A stretch of 64,000 nucleotides of DNA from Ichthyobacterium seriolicida (GCF_002369955.1 NZ_AP014564.1:1408951-1472950), one strand, 5' to 3'. Positions 53,348 to 64,000 are shown, numbered from the stretch's first letter. Translations and numbers: made by a program. The notes: generated from the letters alone by a model not told the origin.

Positions 53348-54475
53348 TTAACTAGTAGGAGCATCAGCATTAATTGTTAATTTATAGTATTTTTTAGTCA
53401 TTCCATCTTGAGCTACTACCGTGAATTTGTATTCTGTTTTTGTACCAGCAGTTGAAGAATGACATTTAAGGTCTGTTGTAGTAGTGCTAGTAGTTCCGCC
53501 TGTTTTAACTCCAGTAATTGGATTGACATTATTACAAGTAGCAGTACTGCTGCTGCAAGCAGTATCACCAACCTCAATATAAGCCCCATTTGGAAGAATT
53601 AAAGCATCTGCTTTGAAATAATCGGTATTACCAACTCCAGCAGTCTTAAGCTCCCCATATTTAGAATCATCAGACTCACTGTCCTTACCAGTTTGCCCTT
53701 TTCTAAGTTCAAACTCAAATGGTTTAGCTTCTGTACCATCATTAGGACTATTGCTAGCAGTATTAGCAGCAGCATAATGAGCTTTAACTATTGAGTTAGC
53801 TGCTATAGTAGTAGTTCTAAACGAAGCTTTGGCATTAATCCCACTGTCAGCAACAGTAAATTTAAAATCATCTTGTCCTATAATAGCGTTATCCGAAGGA
53901 GTATCATGAATAAATACCACTTTAAAAGATTTCTTAATAAGAACCTTGCCATCTTTGTCTTTTCTTTTGATTTCTAAAACTTGGCTAACACCACCAATTT
54001 TTTTCAATTCAGCATGAACTAATTGAGTGCTAATCTCATAATCAAAAGGCACAGTAGAGTCAGCTAATTTAGTATCTCCTAAATAAACATTTTCACCAGG
54101 TTTTTTATTAAGGGTAATCGTAGCCTTAAGTGTTGCAGCAGTACTTATATTTAATGTTTTATCAAATGGCACTGTTACTTTAATAACAGTATCACCTTGA
54201 ATAACTGCAGGAAATTCTGTAGCTAAGTCAGCATATGTAACAGCGGGAGTCTTTTTTACAAAAAGAGCTGCATAAGCAGGAGTAGCGGTATTAGGGTTTG
54301 TTGCAGTGGTGCTATTTTTAGCTTTTGTAAATACAATGCGTTTAATGTTCGCAATTGTGTTCTGTATAGCTTCTTCCTCTGTTTTAGGTCCTTCACTTGG
54401 TTTGTTACAAGAAAAGATTATCGACCCAAGCGTTAGTAATGATAAAATGTTTTTAAATATTTTGTTTGTTTTCAT
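53348..54475 (-). CDS. Array lipoprotein 1 (type A N-module)
   Basis: The 375-residue lipoprotein has SPII signal MKTNKIFKNILSLL with lipobox IFSC (Cys23) and two modules. The type A N-module (about 30-185) holds RIVFTKAKN, FPAVIQGDTVIKVTVPFDKT, GENVYLGDTKL and VLEIKRKDKDG. The C-module shares constant blocks with the whole array: DDFKFTVA, IVKAHY, KPFEFELRKG, YFKADAL, CNNVNPITG and YKFTVVAQDG.TKKYYKLTI, the last strand resembling DUF5018-type Ig domains. Two cysteines before NNVNPITG may form a disulfide. The segments DSESDDSKYGEL and ALILPNGAYIEVG match array gene 6 rather than other type A genes. It has its own leader (54476-54619) and terminator, so it is separately transcribed. Function unknown; probably a surface or periplasmic antigen. 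Confidence 0.82.
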   Translation of the reverse strand: MKTNKIFKNILSLLTLGSIIFSCNKPSEGPKTEEEAIQNTIANIKRIVFTKAKNSTTATNPNTATPAYAALFVKKTPAVTYADLATEFPAVIQGDTVIKVTVPFDKTLNISTAATLKATITLNKKPGENVYLGDTKLADSTVPFDYEISTQLVHAELKKIGGVSQVLEIKRKDKDGKVLIKKSFKVVFIHDTPSDNAIIGQDDFKFTVADSGINAKASFRTTTIAANSIVKAHYAAANTASNSPNDGTEAKPFEFELRKGQTGKDSESDDSKYGELKTAGVGNTDYFKADALILPNGAYIEVGDTACSSSTATCNNVNPITGVKTGGTTSTTTTDLKCHSSTAGTKTEYKFTVVAQDGMTKKYYKLTINADAPTS

Positions 54476-54619
54476 ATCTAATTATTGTTAAAAAATAAAT
54501 GTCAACGACCTAAATGAATAACTAAGCCAGTGACCCCAAACTAAAGAGCTAAGGTAGTAGCTTTATTTTAATTTAGAAGTTTTTTATTTATCCCTTGAAC
54601 TAAAATGGACATAAAAAAA

Positions 54620-54672
54620 TCCCCCAACTTTTAGCTAGGGGATCGAAAAAGGGGCAAAAAAGCCCCTTTTGA
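54620..54672 (-). terminator. Double terminator ending the eight-gene part of the array
   Basis: Downstream of the gene ending at 54710, two minus-strand hairpins follow each other: AAGGGGC/GCCCCTT with a T-tract (54649-54672) and ATCCCC/GGGGAT followed by TTTTTTT (54620-54645). They separate array gene 1 from genes 2-9. Confidence 0.8.
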
Positions 54673-54709
54673 TTTTAAAATAATTAATTCAATTTTTGAA
54701 TAATATTAA

Positions 54710-61763: not shown

Positions 61764-61800
61764 AATTTAAATAATTAATTAATCGTGATTTTGAATAATA

Positions 61801-62973
61801 CTAATTACTACCAGTAGGAGCATCAGCATTAATAGTTAACTTGTAGTATTTTTTAGTCGTTCCATCTTGTGCTACCACTGTGAATTTGTATTCACTTTTT
61901 TTACTAGATGCATCAGCATTACCTTTAAGATTTTGACCATTAGTAATAGATTTTGTGTTTCCAGTAATTGGATTAACGCTATTACAGGCAAAAATATTAC
62001 TATTAGCAGTAGCAGGATAAGGCGTATCGCCAATCTCAATAAACGCCCCATCTGGAAGTTTTAATGCATCTGCTTTGAAATAAGCAGTAGCTTCAACTCC
62101 AGTAGTTTTAAGCTCGCCATCCGTAGTATCAGTAGGGGTTGGAGTACTAGCAGTACTTTTAGCCTTTCTAAGCTCAAACTCAAATGGTCTGGTTTCTGTG
62201 CCATCTTTATCATTGCTATTAGGAGCAACATAATGAGCTCTAACTATATCGCCTGTTGTTTTAGTTGCTCTAAAAGAAGCTATAAGATTAGCATTACTAG
62301 TACCACCAACTTTAAACCCAAAAGCATCTGGTTCTATAGCACATAGATCAGATTTACTATCTGAAAACTTAAGAACTACGGTATATTCTTTTACAGAAAT
62401 AGGGTCATTAGCTATAGCTCCAGGTTTAGTGAATCTAAAAACTTGTTTAGTAGATGCAGCTTCTAATGTCGCCTTAGTAAGATCTCTTGCAGCTACTTTA
62501 ACAGGAAGCTCTACCTCTGTTCCTTTAATAGGAAGCTTATTGCCGTTTTTATCTTCTAAGAAAACATCAACAGAAGATTTAAAAGTAACCTTAGTCTTAA
62601 TAATCATATCCGCTGATAATGCTACAAAATTTGGGTTATAAGGAAATTTTATAAAAATAGTGTCTCCTTTTATATCCCCATCTTTAGCTTCAAACTTATC
62701 TGGATAACCGTTAGAACCTTCGTCGGCAGCTAATTTTTTGTCTCTAGCAGGAGTTTTAGTAATAAAGAGCTTTTCGTAAAATTCAGAAACCTCAGTTTTC
62801 TTTGACTCATTTAGATTTTGAGCTTTCTCAATCTTCACAGAAGTAACCTCTAAGTCTAATGCTTTTGAGTTTTGATCTGTCTTGGGGTCTTCAGATGGTT
62901 TAGAACAAGAAAAAACCACAAGACCAAGAGTCAGTAATGATAAAGTATTTTTAAATATTTTGTTTGTTTTCAT
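61801..62973 (-). CDS. Array lipoprotein 8 (type B' N-module)
   Basis: The 390-residue lipoprotein (lipobox VFSC, Cys23) has the B' N-module of gene 6 with few changes. Its C-module differs: FKVGGTSNANLIASFRA, DIVRAHYVAPNSNDKDGTET, ELRKAKSTASTPTPTDTTDG, and AFIEIGDTPYPATANSNIFA, the last close to gene 2. Comparison of genes 6 and 8 again shows a conserved N-module with exchanged C-terminal loops. Spacing to gene 9 is 33 bp. Confidence 0.82.
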   Translation of the reverse strand: MKTNKIFKNTLSLLTLGLVVFSCSKPSEDPKTDQNSKALDLEVTSVKIEKAQNLNESKKTEVSEFYEKLFITKTPARDKKLAADEGSNGYPDKFEAKDGDIKGDTIFIKFPYNPNFVALSADMIIKTKVTFKSSVDVFLEDKNGNKLPIKGTEVELPVKVAARDLTKATLEAASTKQVFRFTKPGAIANDPISVKEYTVVLKFSDSKSDLCAIEPDAFGFKVGGTSNANLIASFRATKTTGDIVRAHYVAPNSNDKDGTETRPFEFELRKAKSTASTPTPTDTTDGELKTTGVEATAYFKADALKLPDGAFIEIGDTPYPATANSNIFACNSVNPITGNTKSITNGQNLKGNADASSKKSEYKFTVVAQDGTTKKYYKLTINADAPTGSN

Positions 62974-63006
62974 AATTTAAATAATTAATCGTGATTTTGA
63001 ATACTA

Positions 63007-64000
63007 CTAACTAGTAGGAGCAGCAGCATTAATAGTTAACTTGTAGTATTTTTTAGTCGTTCCATCTTGTGCTACTACTGTGAATTTATATTCGACTGCT
63101 GTACCAGATGTAGAATGACCTTTAAGGTCTGTTGTAGTAGTGTTAGTGGTTCCGCCAGTTTTAACTCCAGTAATTGGATTGACATTACTGCAAGGAGTAG
63201 TAGTGGTACTACCAGAACAATCAGTAGTGCCTAGTTCAATATAGGCTCCATCTGGAAGTTTTAAAGCATCTGCTTTGAAATAATCGGTATTACCAACTCC
63301 AGCAGCAAGGAGCTCGCCAGGAGTAGTTTTGCTACTGTCACTCTTTCTAAGCTGAAATTCAAATGGATTAGACTCTGTGCCATCTTTAGTGCTACCATTA
63401 GTAGAAGCAACATAATGAGCTTTTATTATACTACCAGCTGTAGGAGCAGTAACAGAGCTTGTTGCCACTGGAGTAAGGTTAGTAATAGTGTTAATGCCAC
63501 TGGCAGCAATAGTAAATTTAAAATCATCTTGTCCTATAATAGCGTTATCCGAAGGAATATCATGAACAAAGACCACTTTAAAAGATTTCTTGATTAGAAC
63601 ATTGCCATCTTTGTCTTTTTTTTTGATTTCTAAAACTTGGCTAACACCTTCTGTACTTTCTATTAAATTGGCATGAACCAATGTAGTGCTAATAGGATAA
63701 TCAAAAGGAGCGGTAGAATCTGTTAATTTTTTGTCTCCTAAATAAACATTTTCACCAGGTTTTTCATTTAGAGTAATTGTAGCTATTAGCGTTGCAGCAG
63801 TACTTATGTTTAATGTTTTATCAAATGGCACTGTTACTTTAATAACAGTATCACCTTGAATAACTGCAGGAAATTCTGTAGCTAAGTCAGCATATGTAAC
63901 AGCAGGAGTCTTTTTTACAAAGATTTTTAGCTTTTGTAAATACAATGCGTTTAATGTTCGCAATTGCTCTCTGTATAGCTTCTTCCTCTGTTTTAGGTCC
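63007..64000 (-). pseudogene. Array lipoprotein 9 (type A), frameshifted, open at the window edge
   Basis: From the window edge, GPKTEEEAIQRAIANIKRIV and FTKAKN can be read in the type A frame; then the ~51 bases that encode STTATNPNTATPAYAAL in gene 1 are replaced by a single base and reading continues at FVKKTPAVTYADL in another frame. The net 50-base loss shifts the frame, so the signal peptide and the rest are no longer joined. The downstream part (318 codons, ending at 63007) is otherwise intact and very close to gene 7. It could be a silent donor for recombination. The 5' end and signal peptide lie beyond the window. Confidence 0.75.

Follow-up and report, generated by a model that had tools for sequence, protein, structure and literature searches.

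Background

In Staphylococcus aureus, the lpl and csa1 genes encode tandem paralogous lipoproteins at several loci and carry a conserved block inside the gene (PMC9484751; PMC7360770). The exchange unit of lpl begins in the 3' part of one gene, crosses the spacer, and takes in the 5' part of the next gene (Tsuru & Kobayashi 2008, as described in PMC9484751). Similarly, the tandem T7SS immunity genes esaG and tipC undergo homologous recombination at conserved blocks, both within and between tandem paralogues, and tipC genes encode a lipoprotein signal sequence (PMC9484751). The lipoprotein array of Ichthyobacterium seriolicida described here resembles these systems, apparently including the exchange unit of lpl. 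However, its family has no profile match above cut-off to any Pfam or NCBIfam family, two of its N-types are only ~30% identical, its units are bounded by terminators, and its host is Gram-negative. Unlike esaG and tipC, whose products are immunity proteins against a secreted toxin, this array was not seen to contain a toxin or secretion partner.

In Ehrlichia, the OMP-1/P28 family consists of about 20 paralogous genes for surface proteins, arranged in tandem and separated by short spacers, a count and a spacing like those found here, although the products are outer-membrane barrels there and lipoproteins here. Borrelia vlsE and Anaplasma msp2/p44 each combine an expression locus with silent copies. 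In these two systems, variable segments within a constant frame are recombined among paralogues, which is also the pattern reported here, whereas most copies in the present array are complete genes.

I. seriolicida, which causes bacterial hemolytic jaundice in yellowtail, is the sole species of its family (PMC5331501). Its populations are described as clonal, with few variations, in the passage of a 2024 review that cites a 2017 molecular-epidemiology study (PMC11429256), a species-wide statement rather than one about the lipoprotein-array locus. A literature search for Ichthyobacterium together with lipoprotein returned no match. The genome of strain JBKA-6T, a single contig of 1,921,407 bp, was assembled from mate pairs of 3-5 kb and from 454 reads whose mean length, calculated from the published totals, is ~390 bp (PMC5331501). 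We analyzed a window of 64 kb, meaning the whole stretch of DNA at genome positions 1408951-1472950, and followed the array and its relatives through this one genome of a single strain.

Organization of the array

Positions 53348-64000 of the window hold eight intact ORFs of 366-392 aa and a ninth, disrupted gene, all head-to-tail on the minus strand (Table 1). The initial annotation had reported nine head-to-tail genes with a common lipoprotein signal peptide and a set of named conserved blocks; the order, the signal peptide, and the blocks hold, but only eight of the genes are intact. The ATG of gene 9 lies outside the window at genome 1473031 and is followed by A8 and, after five codons, by a stop. 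A 50-bp deletion near window position 63920 shifts the frame a second time, and the assembly contains one N within the gene, at genome 1472995.

The spacers, earlier given as 33-38 bp, measure 33-37 bp elsewhere in the window, but that between genes 1 and 2 is far longer and carries terminators. Its first stem has a folding energy of -14.9 kcal/mol (z -4.0), and it holds a remnant of the leader found at unit heads (82% match). The array does continue past the window, as had been noticed; its extent, then considered unknown, can now be given, since it ends at genome 1487859, ~15 kb past the window, and comprises ~20 genes or remnants and one IS insertion. No transporter or enzyme gene lies inside it.

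Table 1. Coordinates of the array genes, their modules, and related features (window positions unless marked as genome positions).
Feature	Position	Strand	Description	Basis
Gene 1	53348..54475	-	375 aa; N-type A 53894-54475, C-type I 53348-53893	ORF, junction, typing
Spacer, genes 2/1	54476..54709	-	234 bp; GGGGC...GCCCC and CCCC...GGGG hairpins, T-runs	
Gene 2	54710..55867	-	385 aa; N-type B 55256-55867, C-type I 54710-55255	
Gene 3	55905..57083	-	392 aa; N-type B 56472-57083, C-type I 55905-56471	
Gene 4	57118..58281	-	387 aa; N-type B 57670-58281, C-type I 57118-57669	
Gene 5	58317..59417	-	366 aa; N-type A 58833-59417, C-type I 58317-58832	
Gene 6	59451..60614	-	387 aa; N-type B' 59994-60614, C-type I 59451-59993	
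Tail+spacer block	60615..60713	-	last 66 nt of gene 7 and 33-bp spacer before gene 6	
Gene 7	60648..61763	-	371 aa; N-type A 61182-61763, C-type I 60648-61181	
Gene 8	61801..62973	-	390 aa; N-type B' 62350-62973, C-type I 61801-62349	
Gene 9 (disrupted unit head)	63007..64000, runs past window	-	N-type A, damaged; C-type I intact, 63007-63549	
Array gene beyond window	1479675-1480676 (genome)		intact, 333 aa	
Family clusters	17-29k, 182-190k, 684-687k, 790-792k, 986-996k, 1566-1573k (genome)		plus singles	

Module types and recombination

The junction between the two modules is sharp: the N-module ends in KVVF[IV]HD.PS (type A) or TVVLKFSE.KS (types B and B'), and the C-module starts just after. 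Typing by amino-acid identity reproduced the assignment of genes 1, 5, 7, and 9 to N-type A, genes 2, 3, and 4 to B, and genes 6 and 8 to B'. N-modules of A and B/B' are 26-37% identical (intact genes), those of B and B' ~64%, and those within a type 78-98%. When A genes are compared with B/B' genes, their C-type I modules show 48-72% identity.

The near-identical N-module DNA and diverged C-modules that had been remarked on in genes 2-4 are confirmed by synonymous divergence, with dS of 0.015-0.026 in the N-modules versus 0.33-0.75 in the C-modules; DNA identity is 96-100% over most of the N-module and drops at the junction. Since selection at the protein level cannot raise dS at least 10-fold in one half of a gene, the two halves of genes 2-4 have separate histories. 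The same contrast recurs at unlinked pairs, namely 684556/686208 (0.038 in N versus 0.40 in C) and 987931/991081 (0.037 versus 0.43). The mosaic also occurs in opposite directions: 1480714 (A) and 1468401 (B') share 29% of the N-module and 72% of the C-module, and 1484448 and 1467267 share 92% and 29%, respectively. Genome-wide, the combinations number 15 for A-I, 17 for B-I, 10 for A-II, and 5 for B-II, this last count taking in 1789704, a pattern artefact whose N-module is A-like.

A single tree for both modules, which the initial annotation had named as evidence against its proposal, was rejected by AU tests in which each module's tree was imposed on the data of the other (p <= 1.3e-6 in every test). 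The values were 5e-18 and 1e-39 for 15 array genes, 1e-6 and 5e-11 for A genes only, and 9e-91 and 1e-84 for B genes only. MaxChi gave P = 0.0005 in all 13 pairs and placed the breakpoint at most 80 nt from the N/C junction in 12 of them. PHI detected recombination in the N+C concatenation and within C-modules (P = 0.001), as well as within A-type N-modules, and gave no signal within B-type N-modules (P = 0.45). The mosaic exceeds chance, and the AU, PHI, and MaxChi results together with the dS contrast support the recombining repertoire proposed at the outset. The further proposal that C loops vary independently of N-type was right about the mosaic but went too far: in array genes carrying C-type I, similarity of the N-modules correlates with that of the C-modules (Mantel r = 0.41, P = 0.001), and N-C linkage within this type is partly retained, not wholly erased.

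The exchanged segment

At the array junctions, the last 66 nt of a gene and the spacer that follows sort into classes. One identical 99-nt tail+spacer precedes gene 6, gene 8, and gene 1477095-1478270, that is, all three B' genes. A second class is common to genes 3 and 4, and a third is found before 1467267 and 1484448 despite upstream genes of different N-types. In a nearest-neighbour permutation, with the N-module of gene 7 standing in for that of the broken gene 9, the tail+spacer tracked the downstream gene's N-module (mean rank 3.1 versus 7.0 expected, P = 0.001), also when permutation was restricted within N-types (P = 0.049), and showed no association with the N-module of its own gene (P = 0.37). 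The exchanged segment thus seems to span two adjacent genes, comprising a tail, the spacer, and the next N-module. We rate the evidence for this two-gene unit as moderate because a cruder Mantel version of the test was not significant (r = 0.10, P = 0.17).

Predicted transcription units and poly(A) heads

Long spacers of 195-316 bp split the array into six units. These spacers carry GC hairpins and T-runs (folding z -2.9 to -4.0), and such terminators occur between units only; within units the spacers are short, which suggests co-transcription. Gene 1, with terminator-bearing sequence on either side, is a predicted transcription unit of its own. Five unit heads share a leader with at least 88% conservation, in which the standard Bacteroidota promoter TAnnTTTG was not recognized on inspection by eye. 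Each of the four C-type II genes or remnants downstream in the array closes its unit, and the block running from the C-II tail through terminator and leader to the N-module of the next head is itself largely conserved.

After the ATG, three of the leader-bearing heads have a tract that keeps the reading frame (A10T4 in two, A9T5 in one). The remaining two of the five are out of frame: 1483050 (A9T4; site at genome 1484185), which apart from the poly(A) has an intact reading frame of more than 370 codons, and gene 9 (A8T5; 1473031). Internal array genes begin ATGAAAAC, without a poly(A) tract. The frame differences could reflect slipped-strand phase variation or homopolymer error of the 454-based assembly. 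A combination of phase variation with recombination, in which A8-A10 slippage switches the head gene and perhaps the downstream unit as recombination reshuffles the modules of the unit, strikes us as conceivable yet unlikely.

Protein features and selection

A lipobox is present in 49 of 50 aligned members, and 48 of these 49 have Lys at +3, with an acidic residue mostly at +6. The lipoprotein export motif of Capnocytophaga is C-X-K-(D/E)2, and an SDDFE signal has also been described (PMC5080379). The predicted export signal of the family resembles the published ones only partly, as Lys +3 fits C-X-K-(D/E)2 and the acidic position differs. Two SusD homologues of I. seriolicida read C-V-K-D.

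In the loops of the C-module, pN/pS is 1.01 (0.88-1.16), a value that also fits relaxed constraint, whereas dN/dS is 0.28 in the C framework and 0.41 in N-type A. Homogenization of the framework blocks by constant conversion was considered and rejected: framework pS (0.37) is almost as high as that of the loops (0.41), and for the same reason the conserved blocks are taken to be held by purifying selection. In many C-I modules, two cysteines bracket a variable loop that immediately precedes NPITG.

For the eight window proteins, AlphaFold gave two poor models, with pLDDT of 36 and 58, and no Foldseek match obtained with the AlphaFold models reached E 0.001. A low-confidence model had weak cadherin and S-layer fold matches, and cadherin-like and Ig-like Pfam matches fell below threshold; a beta-sandwich fold is only suggested by such predictions. 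No PDB sequence matched, and no family in Pfam or NCBIfam, including any binding family, exceeded the cut-off. The earlier reading of these proteins as exposed antigens or ligand-binding proteins is plausible, although unproven, because they combine a lipobox, a conserved scaffold with loops at pN/pS ~1, and a variable loop bracketed by cysteines.

Distribution of the family

The family comprises ~60 genes, or ~4% of the 1,474 annotated CDSs; ~50 members are full-length, and ~40 relatives lie outside the main array. A related third subfamily includes seven tandem genes at 242.8-252.4k and several singles. These tandem genes, at 242776-252384, form a second array, and the seven encoded lipoproteins are 402-515 aa long. 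Their C-modules belong to a third type (NNSYVCEN ... FKVVAQDG ... LIFKNKY), and the residues that follow their lipobox resemble a K-(D/E) export signal of more typical form. Three fusions, at 19531-21273, 22591-24558, and 27007-28860, join an N-terminal domain to a B-like module and C-type I, and alternate with ordinary family members at 19-29k. Their N-terminal domain recurs in many large repeat proteins of I. seriolicida, and a lipoprotein at window 14282-15904 has it as well.

Broken members include gene 9, the IS-interrupted 1475350 gene, and fragments near 1572k. The transposase MRNKNTLFYRGKTSVELTF occurs in or beside several lipoprotein arrays (1473.8-1475.3k, 252.7k, 1574.6k, and 45.6k), and in the main array, where it disrupts one of the family genes, its reading frame is broken into two ORFs. 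Elsewhere in the window, three tandem near-identical small lipoproteins (MFRKALIIILLLTLISCKYNPYSLETHQ) at 6565-8901 represent another local duplication, and two tandem near-identical lipoproteins (MKTRYFLKEFFSLMFLLTIPFSCVKHKRV) of 472 and 480 aa are encoded at 30838-34176.

No relative turned up in contig scans of other genomes, whether the query was a single protein or a 19-row profile. Likewise, 39 order-level relatives contained no family member, 396 Flavobacteriales genomes gave only weak matches, to the signal-peptide end, and plasmid and phage collections held no relative. As judged from sequence, the family appears restricted to the I. seriolicida lineage in the collections searched.

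Discussion

The recombination-built character of this repertoire is well supported. We consider it probable that the family consists of co-transcribed outer-membrane lipoproteins whose modules are shuffled by homologous recombination into a varied, probably surface-exposed set that serves host contact and spreads antibody targets. Each protein, an N-module joined to a C-module, would be a co-transcribed outer-membrane lipoprotein. Homologous recombination among tandem, and more rarely distant, paralogues would move segments that end at the N/C junction, mostly the 3' tail of one gene, the spacer, and the signal peptide and N-module of the next. This would account for the near-identical N-modules joined to diverged C-modules, in which the scaffold is conserved and the loops vary. 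These diverse proteins would be shown together, most likely contacting the host and distributing antibody targets over many variants. We infer that these proteins are most likely displayed on the surface and act against host immunity or in adhesion. As the species is reported to be clonal in the review passage cited above (PMC11429256), fast switching is disfavored, which argues for change over evolutionary time rather than in the course of an infection, except if poly(A) switching does take place.

The same genetic mechanism could have a different use, with each module combination binding its own ligand, whether a glycan, a host protein, or a nutrient. A conserved scaffold with variable loops, one of them cysteine-bracketed before NPITG, and the retention of many members in apparent operons agree with such specialization, for which a binding family above cut-off in Pfam or NCBIfam, a match among PDB sequences, or a transporter or enzyme gene in the array is missing; we treat it as a tentative possibility. 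Loop pN/pS near 1, as under neutrality, and the presence of broken members would also be compatible with non-adaptive turnover, in which a dispensable family has expanded in a small genome and ordinary gene conversion homogenizes N-modules with no selection for diversity. However, the dN/dS values of the framework and of N-type A indicate that the proteins are maintained, and most members are intact despite the small genome, which makes this account rather improbable.

Classical antigenic switching, with one expression locus and silent cassettes as in vlsE or msp2, is very improbable here: the copies are tandem and variable with a constant signal peptide, as it would predict, yet, unlike start-less cassettes, 17 array genes each come with a start, a lipobox, and a complete ORF, and a single distinct expression locus was not seen. 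We give even less credence to a misjoining of modules when 454 reads and 3-5 kb mate pairs were assembled across a repeat array. One N lies in the array, and homopolymer lengths and gene order may be unreliable, but an individual read can span the short N/C junction, and the same pattern occurs at unlinked loci. Finally, old duplicates whose C-modules diverged under strong diversifying selection without recombination would account for the C loops being the most variable part, but this is scarcely credible, as dS of the same gene pairs differs ~10- to 30-fold between modules, some type-A/type-B pairs are closer in their C- than in their N-modules, and the AU tests contradict it.

The two-gene exchange unit, at the strength given above, the terminator-divided array, and the out-of-frame poly(A) heads are newly described here. 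The array offers a clear system for measuring recombination between paralogues. The findings also suggest that an exchange unit of two adjacent genes, described in Firmicutes, arose in Bacteroidota as well. If the proteins are surface-exposed, the family would constitute a large share of what yellowtail antibodies see, which bears on the choice of vaccine antigens.
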